Assembly (NCBI GenBank): GCA_958431155.1
Contig: OY288106.1
Coordinates: forward strand, 1,029,161 to 1,093,160
Direction of reading: 5' to 3'
Length of the DNA stretch: 64,000 nt
Source: an uncultured candidatus Porisulfidus sp.
Lineage (GTDB): Bacteria > Pseudomonadota > Gammaproteobacteria > Poriferisulfidales > Poriferisulfidaceae
The translations under genes and the position numbers were made by a program. Positions 1,821 to 9,175 of the stretch are shown here, one piece after another (positions within the stretch are counted from its first letter, which is position 1; every line of letters begins with the position of its first letter). Under the pieces are notes generated by a model that was not told the origin of the DNA, searched no databases, and saw only the letters and a program-made list of their open reading frames with translations.

Positions 1821-2654
1821 TCAACGGCCCTCCTTTTCCAGTAAAGCCTGCGTCAAATCCAGAGCCTGTCGGTTCTGCCACACGTCGTGCACCCTGAAGA
1901 TTCGTGCCCCCGCGCAGAGGCCCCAACCCGTCGTCACCACAGTCGCCGGCACTCTTTGACCCGGGTCGGAAGCACCGGAAATCTCGCCCATGAATCGCTT
2001 GCGCGAAGTCCCGAGCAGCACCGGATACCCCAACTCGACAATCTTGTCCAACTGTGCGATCAGTTGCAAGTTGTGCTCTGTTAGCTTGCCGAAGCCAATA
2101 CCCGGGTCAACGATGATCCTTCCAGACTCCACCCCCGCTCGTTGCGCTGCCTCGGCACGTTCTTCTAGAAACTCCCGCACTTCTTTGACCGCGTCGGAAT
2201 ACTGCGGGTCATCCTGCATGGTCTTGGGCGTCCCCTGCATGTGCATCAGGCAATACGGCACTTCTCGCTCGGCCACCAAGGAGAAGATCCCGGGATCGTC
2301 GCGCCCGGCGGAAATGTCGTTGACCATGCCCGCACCCGCGTCCAACGCCGAACTGGCAACTTCGCTCAACGTGGTATCAACGCTGACGACCACTCCCTCT
2401 GGAACCGCCCCGCTGACCTGCTCCACCACATCCAGAATGCGCCGTTTCTGCTCGCCCGCATCCACCCGATCTGCTCCCGGCCGCGTGGACTCCCCTCCGA
2501 TATCGATCAGCGTCGCACCCTCCTCCACCATCTCCAGCGCCCGAGCTAAAGCTCGGCTAGAAGAAGGATAGGCTCCGCCGTCGGAGAAACTGTCCGGCGT
2601 AACGTTGAGAATCCCCATGATCCGGGGAATTTGGAAAAAACTGTCTGGAGTCAC
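1821..2654 (-). CDS. folP: Dihydropteroate synthase
   Basis: FolP condenses 6-hydroxymethyl-7,8-dihydropterin pyrophosphate with p-aminobenzoate in folate synthesis and is the sulfonamide target. The diagnostic motif IMGILNVTPDSFSDGG lies at the N-terminus, followed by IDIGGESTRPGA and later DPGIGFGK and GTSRKRF, all expected substrate-binding loops. The length of 277 is normal. The start is a GTG at 2654; no in-frame ATG lies upstream. The nearest good Shine-Dalgarno (AGGAG) is placed for a different-frame ATG at 2689, whose 12-codon reading frame ends on a TGA overlapping this GTG, so folP may depend on translational coupling. The usual partners ftsH and glmM are absent; an AT-rich accessory islet lies upstream instead. 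Confidence 0.93.
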   Translation of the reverse strand: MTPDSFFQIPRIMGILNVTPDSFSDGGAYPSSSRALARALEMVEEGATLIDIGGESTRPGADRVDAGEQKRRILDVVEQVSGAVPEGVVVSVDTTLSEVASSALDAGAGMVNDISAGRDDPGIFSLVAEREVPYCLMHMQGTPKTMQDDPQYSDAVKEVREFLEERAEAAQRAGVESGRIIVDPGIGFGKLTEHNLQLIAQLDKIVELGYPVLLGTSRKRFMGEISGASDPGQRVPATVVTTGWGLCAGARIFRVHDVWQNRQALDLTQALLEKEGR

Positions 2655-2700
2655 GACGCTGCCGTCAATCCCATGGTGATGGCATGCATGAACGTCTCCT
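2651..2700 (-). promoter_or_regulatory. Shine-Dalgarno plus 12-codon upstream ORF overlapping the folP start
   Basis: On the minus strand AGGAG (2700-2696) is followed after six bases by ATG (2689), opening a frame of 12 codons (MHAITMGLTAAS) that stops at TGA 2653-2651. The folP GTG occupies 2654-2652, so stop and start overlap as GTGA. This is the usual geometry for termination-reinitiation. The alternative is a recent frameshift that split the original folP N-terminus. Confidence 0.45.
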
Positions 2701-2904
2701 AGGCAAACATGTAGGTGGAAAGTGCAATTCTATATTACAAATTCCGATGAAGTATAAATGCAAATTCGCAAACCGCAGTAGATCGACCATACAAAATCCA
2801 TTGCGTCAAACCATACTGTTAATTTAGTCCTCAACTATTGCCCGCCGAGTTTGACGTGCATAGAAACTAACGTAACACCGATTTTGTTCCCATCTGATTA
2901 AGTG

Positions 2905-3885
2905 TTAATTTTTAGTGTAGTAGCAATCAAACTCCTGTACTATGTTTGGATTGTAGAGTTTCTTCACCGAACTCCTTTTATTGGCAGGATTCAAATATCT
3001 TTTCCAGCAGAACTTTTTGTCCGTCTCCAGTTGTCGACGGATAGTGTGATATTTCTGATTAGCTTTGAAATCAGTAAACCTTTTTCGTAATCTTGTTGTC
3101 AAACTATCATAGTCCCACGGATATTTCTTCCGGATGTCTTCTTCTGACAAATTAACTTTTATTGCGTCTAAATCATCTGTTAATCGAACTGTTTGTGCAC
3201 TGGAATCCTTTGATTTAGAAAAGATTAAGTCTAACCGCACTGAAACATTAAAGTCACCGAGAGATTGATTTTCGTGTTTTTCCATTTGTGATTTTAGAAA
3301 GTTAGTTAACTTACGTTCGCGAGAATTTGTGTTGATGGCCTGTGCAGGCATACCCTCATGAACAAATGCTAGTGGCATCAAGTAAAAATTGTAACGTGAC
3401 ATATCCAAATTAAACCACTGGCGCATTACCACCAAATAGTTCTTGAGGCATGCTGTGCCAAACTCTTGAACAATTTGAGATAAACCGGAACCTTTATTTA
3501 AAAGGTGCACCGCATTGTCTCGAATTTCACACATCATTTCGAGATTCTTTCGCACGGCAGGATCCACTGTATCTCCATAATCATCGCGTAAGAGATCGAG
3601 AGCCTTAAAGAGGCTTACAGATAGGTCATTACCACATCGATTCTTCACACGATAGAAACCGTTAGAACCATCTTTTTTTTGTCTCTTTTCATATCGCAAG
3701 ATAGATTCCATTTTATTGCCACTAAGTTGTAACACACGAGCTTTGAGAATCAATTCCCATCCGTTTATCGCGAGGATAGCGAAACTTTCTTCCCGATATG
3801 AAAAATTGGGCTTGTTATATATTTCAATTGCGGCCAACATCGCGTCAATCGACTTATCTGCTAAAGACTGACTTCGTGATTTCAT
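2905..3885 (-). CDS. DUF3644-family protein with HEPN-like RNase motif
   Basis: This 326-residue protein belongs by recall to the DUF3644 family: the N-terminal segment IEIYNKPNFSYREESFAIL...NGWELILKA is its hallmark. Residues 122-127 read R-D-N-A-V-H, which fits the catalytic R-[N/D/H]-x(3-5)-H signature of HEPN nucleases found in toxin-antitoxin and abortive-infection systems. The opening helices (WELILKAR) also resemble HEPN helix 1. The C-terminal half is rich in charged and aromatic residues and unrecognised. The gene is markedly AT-rich compared with its neighbours and is divergent from a Doc/Fic gene across a 226-base intergenic region. Role as an RNA-targeting toxin or defence effector is inference; the family has no established function that I know of. 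Confidence 0.72.
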   Translation of the reverse strand: MKSRSQSLADKSIDAMLAAIEIYNKPNFSYREESFAILAINGWELILKARVLQLSGNKMESILRYEKRQKKDGSNGFYRVKNRCGNDLSVSLFKALDLLRDDYGDTVDPAVRKNLEMMCEIRDNAVHLLNKGSGLSQIVQEFGTACLKNYLVVMRQWFNLDMSRYNFYLMPLAFVHEGMPAQAINTNSRERKLTNFLKSQMEKHENQSLGDFNVSVRLDLIFSKSKDSSAQTVRLTDDLDAIKVNLSEEDIRKKYPWDYDSLTTRLRKRFTDFKANQKYHTIRRQLETDKKFCWKRYLNPANKRSSVKKLYNPNIVQEFDCYYTKN

Positions 3886-4111
3886 GACAAAATCAAACCC
3901 TACCTACGATGATTGCCGCATAAAATTCACGGCATTAATGTCTACGTTGATGTGTGCACGGGCTGAGTATACGGCAAAGTAAACTGCTCTTGCTTCTTGT
4001 GACAACATTGCTATCTGCCCTCGACGCTTGTATGCTCCACTTATATCACTATTGAAGGGCACATATAGGCAACAAGTTTGACATACTGAAAAAATAGCGA
4101 AAAATATTCGG

Positions 4112-5002
4112 ATGCTTGAGTTGACTGCTTCAATAAACGAATCGTATCAGAGATCTCTAGACCTAGTGGGTGACGATGACCCATATTCTGGCCCTGGTTT
4201 CCTCGGCATAAAAGATGTCCTAAAGGCTCACTATCTGATAGCTGATCATTTTTATGCCCAAGGAAGTGGGTTGGGTGGCATCGGCCCAAAAAGTATGGAT
4301 CTTCTGCATTCAGCACTTTTTCGACAACACATTTCATATGGTGGAAAACAGAAATGGCCTACTAAGTACGATACTTGTGCAACGCTTTTCTATGGTTTGA
4401 TCAAAGATCATCCGTTTCATGATGCTAACAAGAGAACAGCTTTTTTATCCTTGGTTTATCATTTGGAAACTTTGGGATTGTGCCCCACCATTAATCAGAA
4501 GGACCTTGAAAATTTCGCTGTTGATGTGGCAGACAGCAACCTTGTTAAATTTAAGCGTTATAAAGAACTGGCGAACAAGTGCGCGGACAAAAGTGATGCT
4601 GAAGTATTTTATATAGCGCATTTTTTGAAGAAACACACTCGTAGCATAGACAAAAGGTTCTACACCGTAACTTATAGAGAACTAAAGTCAATTCTGAATA
4701 GGTTTGGATATAACATCCAGAATCCACAGCGCAACTTCATCGACTTAGTGAGAATTAAAGAGCGTCGGAAGATATTCGGTATCTTTGGTGAAAAAGAAAG
4801 CGTTGATGTCAAAGTTGCAAAAATAGGATTTCCCAGTTGGACCTCCCAAGTGAGCAAAGGCACTATCAGGACTGTAAGGAAAGCGACCCAACTTACGCAT
4901 GATAAAGGAGTCGATTCTCAGACTTTTTTCAAAGACGCAGATCCTATCTCAATTCTAATATCCCGGTACCAAGAGCCGTTAAGGCATCTGGCCGATCGAT
5001 GA
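4112..5002 (+). CDS. Fic/Doc-family protein with C-terminal extension
   Basis: Residues 100-108 read H-P-F-H-D-A-N-K-R, the Fic core loop in its Doc-like form (HxFxDANKR), preceded by the Doc-type phrase LLHSALFRQ...KYDTCATLFYGLIKD. Fic/Doc enzymes transfer AMP or phosphate to targets; Doc inactivates EF-Tu by phosphorylation. The family's Doc members are about 125 residues, whereas this one has 296: roughly 155 additional C-terminal residues hold a basic segment (TYRELKSILNRFGYNI) I cannot assign, possibly DNA- or RNA-binding. No obvious inhibitory (S/T)xxxE(G/N) helix or separate antitoxin ORF is visible. ATG 4112 has no clear Shine-Dalgarno, and TTGACA at 4078-4083 is a possible -35 box. 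The gene is AT-rich and divergent from the HEPN-like DUF3644 gene, suggesting a horizontally acquired toxin or defence pair. Confidence 0.8.
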   Translation: MLELTASINESYQRSLDLVGDDDPYSGPGFLGIKDVLKAHYLIADHFYAQGSGLGGIGPKSMDLLHSALFRQHISYGGKQKWPTKYDTCATLFYGLIKDHPFHDANKRTAFLSLVYHLETLGLCPTINQKDLENFAVDVADSNLVKFKRYKELANKCADKSDAEVFYIAHFLKKHTRSIDKRFYTVTYRELKSILNRFGYNIQNPQRNFIDLVRIKERRKIFGIFGEKESVDVKVAKIGFPSWTSQVSKGTIRTVRKATQLTHDKGVDSQTFFKDADPISILISRYQEPLRHLADR

Positions 5003-5229
5003 CCAATTGCGTGCACAAATTCTATATTAATAGTGTGTAGTAGACACCATAAGACCGGAAAGTGGGATACACATCGGAACGCTAACTCCCCCAAGGAGAA
5101 ATACCCAACCCCCACTATTTCCCAAGTTCGAAAACTATGCCGCAACGGATTAAAAAATACATTGAAGCTTGTGACTCCAGCCATACTTTCGATTTTGAAA
5201 TCCATCCATTCCACCTACCGGAAAGCCGG

Positions 5230-5305
5230 TGGTGGGCCATCAGGGACTCGAACCCCGAACCTGCTGATTAAGAGTCAGTTGCTCTACCAATTGAGCTAAT
5301 GGCCC
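5230..5305 (-). tRNA. tRNA-Lys(CTT)
   Basis: The minus strand folds as a complete cloverleaf with acceptor GGGCC.../GGCCC, a D-arm with GCTC and GGTAGAGC, anticodon loop CTCTTAA (anticodon CTT), T-loop TTCGAGT and an encoded CCA end (5232-5230). It is the last gene of a four-tRNA cluster. Its 3' end faces the AT-rich Fic/DUF3644 islet, the usual orientation for integration at a tRNA 3' end, although I found no direct repeat. Confidence 0.95.
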
Positions 5306-5314
5306 ATCCTGGGA

Positions 5315-5391
5315 TGGGGTGAGCGACGGGATTTGAACCCGCGACCTCAGGAGCCACAATCCTGTGCTCTACCGACTGAGCTACGCTCACC
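5315..5391 (-). tRNA. tRNA-His(GTG)
   Basis: Cloverleaf on the minus strand: acceptor GTGAGC/GCTCAC, anticodon stem CAGGA/TCCTG around loop TTGTGGC (anticodon GTG), T-loop TTCAAAT and an encoded CCA (5317-5315). A G at 5391 can pair with the C discriminator, the G-1:C73 identity pair of tRNA-His. Ten bases separate it from tRNA-Lys. Confidence 0.95.
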
Positions 5392-5401
5392 GCTGACCGG
5401 C

Positions 5402-5478
5402 TGGCGCGCCCGGCAGGACTCGAACCTGCGACCCTCGGTTTAGAAGACCGATGCTCTAATCCGCTGAGCTACGGGCGC
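5402..5478 (-). tRNA. tRNA-Arg(TCT)
   Basis: Acceptor GCGCCCG/CGGGCGC, a D-arm with GCTCAGCGGATTAGAGC, anticodon stem TCGGT/ACCGA around loop CTTCTAA (anticodon TCT, reading AGA/AGG), T-loop TTCGAGT and an encoded CCA (5404-5402). It lies second in the Pro-Arg-His-Lys cluster. Confidence 0.95.
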
Positions 5479-5515
5479 GATTCATCCCTGAGAAAAAATC
5501 CCGGGCATCGTCCGC

Positions 5516-5592
<77 letters not shown>

Positions 5593-5681: not shown

Positions 5682-7058
5682 TCACGCTTTCCGGAAACGC
5701 CAGCCGTACATCACACGCCCGTAAAAGTTGAACCACTTCCTCGCTTCAGGATCCTGGAACGGATAGTCCGCCCCGATCTGCCTTGCCGTAACAAGGCCGG
5801 TCACGAAACAGGTCTCCTGGCTGTTGATCAGAGTATGGGCGCCACAGTGCCACGCTTGCCTCTTACCCTGAATGAAACGAAAAATATGAACTAGAAGGGC
5901 CACGTGACGCACGTCGTGCACGATGTGCTGAAACCACCATTTCTTGATAATCTTGCCTTCGTCAATGCGACTGATCGGATTGTAGGTCACCAGGCAAGGC
6001 TTGTCCGATCGCTTCACCCAAGGTTGCTGGTTGTGCATGATGTAGGTGATTTCGTAGTTGTCGGGCCTGACCCCATACTGCTCGATGTGGTTGCTCCGGG
6101 TGTCGAGCGCCTCGACTGCGCTGTCCGGAAGCACCGAGGCGTCCGAGTGAACGACCGTATGGTTATGCAACTCGCTCTCGTAACGGATCGAAGAGAGAAT
6201 CCATCGCTCAAGAAAGGTCGGCTTGTCCAGCATCATCAGCGTTTGATTCGCGTTGCACGCGAAAACCACTTCGTCGAACGTTTCCGTCTGCCCATTTTCG
6301 TCCTCGACGACGACATCGGAGGCGCTCCGATGCACTTTTCGAACCGGCCGGTCAAGGTAGATCTTGTCCTGAAAATCAGCCGACAATTCTTGATAAATGC
6401 GTCGCGTGCCCTGGTCCCAGGTTTGCATCGGCGTTGCGGTTTCAATATCGAAGAACTCCAGGTACCGGGAAAACAGGGCTGCGGGCATGTCGAACACGTT
6501 CGTGGCCATCAGGAAGTTGACGAACATCGGCTTCAGGATTTTGTACCGGAAATCCCCGGAGAACCCGCCCAGATTAAGAACCGTACCCATGCTGACGTAG
6601 TTGAACGGGTTGAGAGCATTGAGCAGTTTGGACCTGGATCGGCCGAGTTGGCCGAACCATTTGAGGCGTCTCAGGATCTTCTGGAATTTCTCGATTTCCG
6701 GTTGCAGCTGCCTCCTGATGTCAGAGTCGAAATCGTGAGCGTAGATGCCGCCACGATACTTCACGCTGTAGCTGAACTTGGTGTCGACCAACTCAATGCC
6801 GTGTTGCTGCATGAGCAGAATAATATGGTGGTATACCGAGGGGATGCACGCGGTGACGGAAATATCAAACGGGATCGAGGTTCCGTCGTCTTGCGGCATG
6901 TCGACCGTAATGGCGTTGCCGCCGACCTGAGACTGCGCTTCGAACAGTCGAAAATCGAATCGATCGGGATGCCGATGCAGCGCCCAGGCGACTCCCAACC
7001 CCGAAACTCCCCCACCGATAATAGCGACTTTTCTCGGCATGGCTGCGCTCTGCTTCAC
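5682..7058 (-). CDS. FAD-dependent amine-oxidase-like oxidoreductase
   Basis: The N-terminal Rossmann motif VAIIGGGVSGLGVAW, an acidic FAD-ribose site (LFEAQSQVGGNA) and the C-terminal FAD segment (CFVTGLVTARQIGADYPF) place this 458-residue protein in the NAD(P)-binding/amine oxidase flavoprotein superfamily. It resembles the 'NAD/FAD-binding' proteins often encoded with DUF1365 and cyclopropane-fatty-acid synthase-like genes; those partners are absent here, so the substrate is unknown. The start is probably GTG 7058 because AGGAG lies six bases upstream; the internal ATG at 7040 lacks a good ribosome site. It is divergent from the bufferin operon across about 210 bases and may be transcribed alone. 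Confidence 0.75.
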   Translation of the reverse strand: MKQSAAMPRKVAIIGGGVSGLGVAWALHRHPDRFDFRLFEAQSQVGGNAITVDMPQDDGTSIPFDISVTACIPSVYHHIILLMQQHGIELVDTKFSYSVKYRGGIYAHDFDSDIRRQLQPEIEKFQKILRRLKWFGQLGRSRSKLLNALNPFNYVSMGTVLNLGGFSGDFRYKILKPMFVNFLMATNVFDMPAALFSRYLEFFDIETATPMQTWDQGTRRIYQELSADFQDKIYLDRPVRKVHRSASDVVVEDENGQTETFDEVVFACNANQTLMMLDKPTFLERWILSSIRYESELHNHTVVHSDASVLPDSAVEALDTRSNHIEQYGVRPDNYEITYIMHNQQPWVKRSDKPCLVTYNPISRIDEGKIIKKWWFQHIVHDVRHVALLVHIFRFIQGKRQAWHCGAHTLINSQETCFVTGLVTARQIGADYPFQDPEARKWFNFYGRVMYGWRFRKA

Positions 7059-7268
7059 ACGTGGCTCCTATTTACCACCGTCCGCGACCTCCTCCAGCGA
7101 AATTCCATGCCCGATCATCCGACTAAACACCTGTTGCATATGTTTCAAGAATTATATACATGAGGTGATCAGGCTGCTGAATTCTGGACACGCGGGAACA
7201 AAAGGACGACAATGTGGTCAACAGTATCAATGGGTTAATCCCCCCCTCCATCTCAACCTAAGGAAAAC

Positions 7269-7553
7269 ATGAAAAAATCACATTCTCTGGCATCCAGCCT
7301 GATCGTGCTGGCACTCGGCTCCGGCCTGGCTTCCACCTCCGCACTAGCGGTTCCCGATGCCCCCAAGAACTGGGAAAAATGTACCGGCATCTCCAAGGCC
7401 GGAATGAACGATTGCGGAGCGACGGACGGCGCACACAGGTGTGCTGGCGCAGCCCCGGAAGACGGCATGGAAACCGAATGGATCTACGTCCCGGAAGGCA
7501 CTTGTGAGAAGATCGTGGGCGGAACGGTACATGCGGTCAAGCCTGCCAAATAA
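7269..7553 (+). CDS. bufA: Bufferin-type metallophore precursor (DUF2282/BufA family)
   Basis: A 94-residue secreted protein: a basic N-terminus, a hydrophobic core and a cleavage site after ALA (residues 25-27), then a small mature domain with four cysteines (C38, C49, C58, C79) in the DUF2282 arrangement (WEKC, NDCG, HRCAG, EGTCEKI). In characterised bufferins such cysteines are modified by a multinuclear iron enzyme to copper-binding heterocycles, and the product buffers excess metal in the periplasm. The modifying enzyme (DUF692) and its partner (DUF2063) follow immediately, which makes the assignment strong. A good ribosome site (AAGGA) precedes the ATG. Metal identity is not shown by sequence. 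Confidence 0.85.
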
Positions 7554-7562
7554 ACTCCATTG

Positions 7563-8399
7563 ATGCTTGCCGAAGATACGGCAGCCCCGCTCACGGGAAT
7601 GGGGGCCGGCTTACGTGGCCCCCACGTCCCGGAGATCCTGCAGCAAAACCCTGCAGTTCCCTGGTTTGAGCTTCTGACCGACAACCACCTGTGCGCCGGA
7701 GGCGCGCTCAGGTTTCAGGCCGAGGCCATTGCCGAACGATATCCGGTCGCCCTGCACGGCGTCAACCTTTCCCTTGGCGGCACCGACCCGCTGGATCGTG
7801 AATATCTTGGTCAGGTTCGGGCCCTCGCCCAGAGCACTGAGGCCCGCCATATCTCGGAACACCTCGCATTCACCGCCTGCAACGGCATACACAGTCACGA
7901 CCTGCTTCCACTGCCATGGACCGAGGAAGCCCTGCAACACGTGGCAGACCGAATCTCTCAAGTCCAAGATTTTCTTGGCCAAACCATCTTAGTCGAGAAC
8001 ATTTCCACCTATCTGGAATACGAACATTCCACTCTGAAGGAAGGCGATTTCCTGCTGGAACTCTGCACGCGGACCGACTGCAAACTGCTCCTGGACATCA
8101 ACAACGTCTACGTCAACGCTGTCAATCACGGTCACGACCCGCAGGACCTGCTGGGCACCATACCCTGGACACACGTGCGCGAGGTCCATCTGGCGGGCCA
8201 CGAGGAACGTGACGGGCTTTTGATTGATACGCACGGGGGGTGCGTCTGCGATGAGGTTTTGAATCTCTTCCTGGGCGTGGTACCACATATCCCGGAAACT
8301 CCGGTGCTGTTCGAATGGGATACTTCCCTGCCTCCGTGGCCTGTCGTCTGGGAGGAAGCCCAGCGGCTTGACGAGGCCTACCAGGCAGTCCTCGCATGA
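7563..8399 (+). CDS. bufB: DUF692 multinuclear non-heme iron oxidase (MNIO), BufB-like
   Basis: Member of the DUF692/MNIO family, TIM-barrel enzymes that use two or three iron ions to modify cysteines of a peptide substrate. Family markers are present in order: GAGLRGPHVPEIL near the start, HGVNLSLGG, SEHLAF, ILVENISTYL, LLLDINNVYVN, HLAGHEE and IDTHGG, which contribute His, Glu, Asp and Asn metal ligands. The length of about 278 is normal. An in-frame TTG lies just before the chosen ATG, and ATG 7599 is another possible start. It begins nine bases after the precursor gene and its 3' end overlaps the DUF2063 gene by four bases, a classic precursor-MNIO-partner operon. Confidence 0.9.
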   Translation: MLAEDTAAPLTGMGAGLRGPHVPEILQQNPAVPWFELLTDNHLCAGGALRFQAEAIAERYPVALHGVNLSLGGTDPLDREYLGQVRALAQSTEARHISEHLAFTACNGIHSHDLLPLPWTEEALQHVADRISQVQDFLGQTILVENISTYLEYEHSTLKEGDFLLELCTRTDCKLLLDINNVYVNAVNHGHDPQDLLGTIPWTHVREVHLAGHEERDGLLIDTHGGCVCDEVLNLFLGVVPHIPETPVLFEWDTSLPPWPVVWEEAQRLDEAYQAVLA

Positions 8400-9175
8400 A
8401 TCTTGCGGAACTCCAAGCCAGGATGCTGGAGGCGGTGACCCGGGCGGGAGATGCGGATCCCGGGCTCAATTCCTTGATTTCTCCGGCTCGCGGCATCCAG
8501 CCGGAAATACGTCTGGATGCCTATCGAACCAACATCAGAGGAGCGCATCTGGAAGCACTTGGCGCCGCTTATCCGGTCACCCAGGAAGTCTTGGGTCCCC
8601 GCTACTGGCGGCAACTCCTGGCACAGGAAATTCCGGCATTCGGGTCCCAGTCCCCCGATCTCCATGAATACGGCGATTTCCTGCCCGAACTCCTCAGTCG
8701 GGCTCAGGAAAGCTATGAGGAACTGACCGATTTCGGTTATCTCGGCGAACTCGCGCAACTCGAATGGCAGATCCACCTGGCGCGATTCAAGGCACCGGAC
8801 CCGGATTTTGATTGGGCGGCCTTTCAAGCCCTAGAACCGGACCGCCAAATGCGGGTTCGTTTCACTTTGAGTCACGCGCTGCACAAGATGCGATTTTCCC
8901 AGCCCGTCGACGCGATCTGGCATTCCCACCAAGTAGACGGACTGGACCTCCCACCTCGATCCCCGGTCGCCTGTTGCGTGCACCGGAAGGAGTCGTTCGA
9001 CGTGACTGTTACCCGACTGTCCGAAGATGAGTGGAAACTGCTGGAAGCGCTCAGCAAGGGTCAATGTTTGGAAGCTCTACCTGCTGGAGATTCTCAAGCC
9101 ACCGTTCGGACCCTGCACGACTGGATTCAGTGCGGATGGATCAACGGATTTCGGGAGAGGCAATGGCCTGATTAG
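8396..9175 (+). CDS. bufC: DUF2063 partner protein of the MNIO enzyme, BufC-like
   Basis: A 259-residue protein with the N-terminal DUF2063 helical domain (LAELQARMLEAV... LDAYRTNIRGAHLEALGAAYPVTQEVLG), the recognition partner that presents the peptide precursor to DUF692 enzymes. A hydrophobic FGYLGELAQLEW segment and a C-terminal winged-helix-like domain follow, as in BufC-type proteins. The ATG overlaps the stop of the MNIO gene (ATGA), implying coupled translation and a fixed ratio of the two. No DoxX-like bufD gene, found in some bufferin loci, follows. Confidence 0.85.
   Translation: MNLAELQARMLEAVTRAGDADPGLNSLISPARGIQPEIRLDAYRTNIRGAHLEALGAAYPVTQEVLGPRYWRQLLAQEIPAFGSQSPDLHEYGDFLPELLSRAQESYEELTDFGYLGELAQLEWQIHLARFKAPDPDFDWAAFQALEPDRQMRVRFTLSHALHKMRFSQPVDAIWHSHQVDGLDLPPRSPVACCVHRKESFDVTVTRLSEDEWKLLEALSKGQCLEALPAGDSQATVRTLHDWIQCGWINGFRERQWPD

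Follow-up and report, generated by a model that had tools for sequence, protein, structure and literature searches.

We found a 2.5-kb AT-rich islet between folP and a tRNA gene cluster; its two genes are divergent and separated by 226 bp. Our preferred reading, to which we assign a probability of roughly 0.7, is that this islet is variable cargo, in which two single-gene conflict effectors, acquired independently of each other, are neighbours by chance. One gene (ORF1) encodes a DUF3644 protein predicted to be a HEPN ribonuclease, and the other (ORF2) encodes a Doc-type Fic protein with a C-terminal extension. The window, meaning the whole stretch of 64,000 nucleotides that was analysed, belongs to a genome that consists of a single contig of 1.59 Mb. 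An earlier reading made from the DNA letters alone (the sequence-only reading) had placed two divergent AT-rich genes between folP and the tRNA cluster, and the ORF positions, the tRNA genes and the GC content bore this out, with GC at 0.37-0.42 inside the islet compared with 0.55-0.61 outside (about 40% versus 58%). The coordinates are collected in the table, which also lists a bufferin-type RiPP operon observed elsewhere in the window (7269-9175, forward strand).

Features of the islet and of other parts of the window, with positions counted from the first letter of the window
Feature	Position	Strand	Basis or remark
Variable islet, folP to tRNA-Lys	2678..5226		blastn vs same-genus genomes; GC
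folP	1821-2654	-	islet neighbour
tRNA-Lys/tRNA-His/tRNA-Arg/tRNA-Pro cluster	5230..5592	-	borders islet
AATTCTATATTA, 12-bp direct repeat, left copy	2726..2737	+	flanks gene pair
AATTCTATATTA, 12-bp direct repeat, right copy	5018..5029	+	flanks gene pair
ORF1, DUF3644 protein, 326 aa, predicted HEPN ribonuclease	2905..3885	-	PF12358, PADLOC PDC-S19
ORF1 predicted HEPN domain, residues 1-164	3394..3885	-	AlphaFold2 model, mean pLDDT 81.6; structural matches
ORF1 R122-D-N-A-V-H127, HEPN RxxxxH motif, end of helix 3	3505..3522	-	40 aligned relatives
ORF2, Doc-type Fic protein with C-terminal extension, 296 aa	4112..5002	+	Fic, DOC_P1, phrog_18015
ORF2 Doc fold, residues 28-177	4193..4642	+	aligned to P1 Doc 3dd7/3k33
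ORF2 HPFHDANKR active-site motif, residues 100-108	4409..4435	+	kinase-type, K at position 8
ORF2 HicA-like (dsRBD-fold) C-terminal domain, residues 182-272	4655..4927	+	structural matches, hhalign
DUF2282 precursor	7269-7553	+	bufferin-type RiPP operon
MNIO maturase BufB	7560-8399	+	NF050167 above cut-off
DUF2063/HvfC-like partner	8396-9175	+	bufferin-type RiPP operon

When the same locus was compared by blastn across genomes of the genus, DNA homology ended at about 2678, just upstream of folP, and restarted at 5227, at the 3' edge of the tRNA-Lys gene. The site is occupied in genomes G001 and G003 by a lipoprotein-like gene together with a MazE-like antitoxin/canonical Doc pair (2271-2905 in locus L090 and 1393-2018 in locus L092 of the sister species), and in G002 by a different small gene. 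We conclude that the folP/tRNA-Lys site is a slot for exchangeable cargo. The short canonical Doc that sister species carry in this slot seems to be there by coincidence, because the proteins have unlike lengths and architectures and the DNA cannot be aligned. The gene pair is flanked by a 12-bp direct repeat, and none of 300 shuffles of both flanks reached 12 bp. Within the left copy, the part AATTCTATA is common to the sister species and most of the copy is common to G001 and G003. The repeat may mark the insertion, with a left edge somewhere from 2738 to about 2755.

The islet holds no mobility gene such as an integrase or transposase, and no promoter signal there exceeded the shuffled background. 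Both results would be expected if the islet were functionally silent foreign DNA, the remnant cargo of a lost mobile element, as would a genome of 1.6 Mb and a folP/tRNA-Lys site from which the lipoprotein gene of the sister species is gone. We consider this explanation unlikely, because neither reading frame is broken or truncated and all catalytic residues are kept (see below), which argues for recent acquisition or selection.

ORF1 matched the Pfam profile for DUF3644 (PF12358) with an E-value of 3e-49 and the PADLOC profile PDC-S19 with an E-value of 1e-127 across residues 1-325, that is, over its full length. DUF3644 was assigned to the HEPN superfamily in 2013 by Anantharaman et al. (PMC3710099), from whom we took the features that define a HEPN protein: an Rx4-6H motif with a polar residue after the arginine, placed where helix 3 ends or the helix 3-4 loop starts, an Ex3[KR] motif in helix 2, and a four-helix fold. 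Metal-independent RNase activity is a further hallmark of the superfamily. In an alignment of 40 relatives, R122 and H127 of ORF1 were invariant, and the residue after R122 is the polar D123. The alignment and the AlphaFold2 model together placed E44-x3-K48 in helix 2 (31-54), and in the model R122 lies in a helix (109-125) and H127 in the loop that follows, ahead of a further helix (133-158). The best structural matches of the model were 4nqf (Z 10.0), the HEPN-MNT protein 8xeh (Z 9.7), MntA-HepT (9.7) and Csm6 (9.0), and nearly all of the top 14 entries were HEPN proteins (Z 8.0-10.0), although Z-scores below 13 are common among helical bundles and moderate values arise by chance. For this reason, the HEPN assignment leans largely on the sequence motifs. 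Foldseek by itself returned no match with an E-value below 0.5, too weak to establish the HEPN fold, and when the DUF3644 family profile was compared with the PDB, the sole sequence matches were HEPN toxins, at weak E-values of 0.07-0.15.

Judged from the alignment and the model, ORF1 has the HEPN active-site pattern and a match to the HEPN fold, and by its sequence it is a further member of the already published DUF3644 HEPN family. The sequence-only reading had noted R-D-x3-H in a HEPN-like protein and had held its idea refuted if structure prediction showed no HEPN fold. The motif held up as R122-D-x3-H127, the HEPN-like assignment agrees with the invariant RxxxxH and with E44-x3-K48, and HEPN proteins led the structural matches. 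The same reading had also ascribed an unfamiliar extra domain to each protein. This stood for the C-terminal domain of ORF2 and failed for ORF1, where an unusual C-terminal domain was rejected because PDC-S19 and the relatives align over the full length. Our literature search found no paper testing DUF3644 or PDC-S19 experimentally, nor any about HepS, a HEPN protein from a prophage that is among the structural matches of ORF1.

DUF3644 was present in about 3% of the genomes sampled from the class and phylum. Relatives of ORF1 occur on plasmids, in prophages, in Streptococcus satellite phages, in phages of Listeria, Staphylococcus and Streptococcus, and on many viral contigs, one of which also carries a phage integrase. 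Another relative lies in the tail region of a P2-like phage beside gpR. Most informative is locus L098 (2-8490), a type I restriction operon, in which a relative 41% identical to ORF1 sits between hsdS and hsdR and overlaps each of them by 4 bp. RNA-targeting defence effectors are a published role for HEPN families related to DUF3644 (PMC3710099), and the position of this gene inside a type I restriction-modification (R-M) operon supports such a role for DUF3644.

ORF2 matched the Fic (E 2e-9) and DOC_P1 (E 1e-11) profiles, both above their curated cut-offs, and also phrog_18015 (E 1.5e-11). The Doc consensus is HxFx(D/N)(A/G)NKR, in which a lysine at position 8 points to phosphorylation rather than AMPylation (PMC4177925), and HPFHDANKR of ORF2 agrees with this consensus, including the lysine. 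Residues H100, F102, N106, K107 and R108 were invariant in 16 aligned proteins. Because the key residues of the ORF1 and ORF2 motifs are invariant in their relatives, we conclude that the motifs did not arise by chance. In the model, residues 28-177 superimposed on P1 Doc (3dd7/3k33) with a Z-score of 13.8 and an rmsd of 2.0-2.1 over 122 residues, and the six-helix core of Doc was covered almost completely (122 of the 124 residues of 3k33). The profiles, the motif and the fold thus confirm what had been read from the letters, namely HPFHDANKR in a Doc-type Fic protein.

The C-terminal domain of ORF2 had no Pfam match, and its similarity to HicA emerged through profile-profile and fold comparison. 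Residues 182-272 are modelled as alpha-beta-beta-beta-alpha, as expected of the HicA/dsRBD fold, and matched 1whz (Z 6.7, 70 of 70 residues) and the HicA chains 6g26 (from HicAB; Z 5.1) and 5yrz (Z 5.0), all modest scores. Compared by hhalign with a HicA alignment built from genomes, the domain reached a probability of 94% and a score of 37.4, whereas 150 column shuffles gave at most 11.9 and the reversed profile gave 10.1. The catalytic histidine of HicA (GSH motif) was missing in the C-terminal domains inspected, which have GNF, RNF, GDY or similar at the aligned position. No gene adjacent to ORF2 in the window is a candidate HicB antitoxin.

Full-length relatives of ORF2 were found in filamentous phages, namely a 7.9-kb Salmonella element, a Vibrio phage and locus L180, which also bears a Zot homologue. 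Others were found in prophages, one of them beside a phage integrase, and on a few chromosomes, where one relative (49% identical) adjoins a tRNA-Pro gene. Single-sequence scans of genome contigs and viral contigs for ORF2 relatives returned almost nothing. In some prophages a short Doc-like gene lies directly upstream of the Doc-plus-HicA-like gene, so that two Docs stand in tandem (L187 4494-5714 and L184 4437-5714; the profile scan covered the L187 copy), and the short Doc could regulate the long protein. In locus L178, some 2.2 kb separate a Doc-plus-HicA-like gene from the gene of a putative serine recombinase (6758-8356, reverse strand), so called because its N-terminus resembles one.

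The Doc fold and motif of ORF2, and the normal MazE-like/Doc pair of two sister species at the same site, could also be explained if ORF2 belonged, as the toxin, to a normal Phd/Doc-type pair with an overlooked antitoxin, the DUF3644 gene being a mere neighbour. We judge this very unlikely. No plausible small ORF for a Phd-like antitoxin lies upstream or downstream of ORF2, and a missed antitoxin ORF was rejected on that ground. Further, no consistent gene, whether an antitoxin, HicB or other, adjoins the relatives of ORF2, and ORF2 is twice as long as the Doc of the sister species.

The sequence-only reading had proposed that the two genes form a two-component defence or addiction module, which it held to be refuted if DUF3644 and Doc-Fic did not co-occur outside this genome. 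Searches of 41 other genomes and records over their whole length, namely 18 genomes that carry DUF3644 and 23 records from plasmids, phages or viruses, revealed no Fic gene within 55 kb of DUF3644; the nearest was 55 kb away, on a Methylobacter plasmid. Among the fetched loci, which have flanks of a few kb and include some duplicates, DUF3644 was present in 107 and Fic in 71, and both occurred only in the window's own locus. DUF3644 was absent from the genomes and inoviruses tested that have a full-length ORF2 relative. The search for DUF3644 covered about 760 genomes and loci with flanks of a few kb, a scope that a rare lineage-specific pairing could escape. With these results, the pairing was rejected as a system on co-occurrence, and the proposed module did not survive the comparison.

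A genuine module, in which a HEPN RNase and a Doc kinase cooperate with or restrain each other, would account for two divergent neighbours in one AT-rich islet and for the direct repeat that flanks them. A small shared islet bounded by a 12-bp repeat counts against independent effectors, and it could also point to genes that move and function together. Pairs in divergent orientation, such as ORF1 and ORF2, may be co-regulated. In addition, RloC-like HEPN genes are found with Doc toxins in R-M neighbourhoods (PMC3710099), but the HEPN families in that published association are different ones and are fused to ABC ATPases. The pairing was never repeated anywhere tested, and phages, plasmids and R-M operons carry relatives of either gene as solitary cargo. 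We therefore consider a two-component module quite unlikely. The contexts of the relatives do support the view that both genes belong to families of mobile conflict genes, and since the genes travel separately everywhere else examined, it is most likely that two mobile conflict genes, each of a known kind, have come together here by chance.

Under our preferred reading of two independent effectors, ORF1 would act as a HEPN ribonuclease through its N-terminal HEPN domain and an R122/H127 active site, with the C-terminal region probably serving as an infection sensor or as a brake on the enzyme. Upon phage infection, ORF1 would likely cleave cellular RNA and translation would stop. For ORF2 we predict phosphorylation of a translation factor, EF-Tu for example. 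Its HicA-like domain has the fold minus the catalytic histidine, so that its more likely roles are to bind RNA or a partner, or to hold back the kinase as a Phd-type antitoxin otherwise would. ORF2 resembles the moron genes that filamentous phages and prophages carry as solitary cargo. A more tentative idea, which we consider possible though not probable, is that the Doc-plus-HicA-like fusion serves phages as a weapon complete in itself, with no antitoxin. The catalytically dead HicA-fold domain would target or check the kinase and sense RNA or a competitor's product, such that filamentous phages and prophages would arrest translation only on superinfection.

Removing the paired HEPN-Doc system as a false lead leaves a modest novelty, the lone Doc-plus-HicA-like fusion (PHROG 18015) as stand-alone cargo of filamentous phages and prophages. 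This widespread and unnamed single-gene phage protein is the part worth following. If its HicA-like domain replaces an antitoxin, the fusion would illustrate how a kinase that arrests translation can travel safely without a partner gene.

Both proteins can be set beside known systems. ORF1 shares with the PADLOC PDC-S19/DUF3644 HEPN proteins, a single-gene phage defence candidate, the full-length match, the invariant RxxxxH and the mobile-element context, and its domain layout is no different. The EC042_2821-type HEPN proteins of R-M operons (PMC3710099) overlap with DUF3644, and the 41%-identical relative does lie within an hsdM-S-R operon, whereas ORF1 itself lies outside any R-M operon, and its length leaves no room for additional wHTH and REase domains. 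ORF2 shares the six-helix fold and the kinase motif of P1 Doc, but unlike Phd-Doc it has no Phd-like antitoxin gene and carries a HicA-like C-terminal domain. That domain shares fold and profile similarity with the HicA mRNA interferase; unlike HicA, it lacks the GSH catalytic histidine and a HicB gene and is fused to a Doc kinase. A further counterpart is PHROG 18015, a phage protein of unknown function with the same Doc-plus-C-terminal-domain architecture (E 1e-176 for an inovirus member), of which ORF2 is a diverged chromosomal member.
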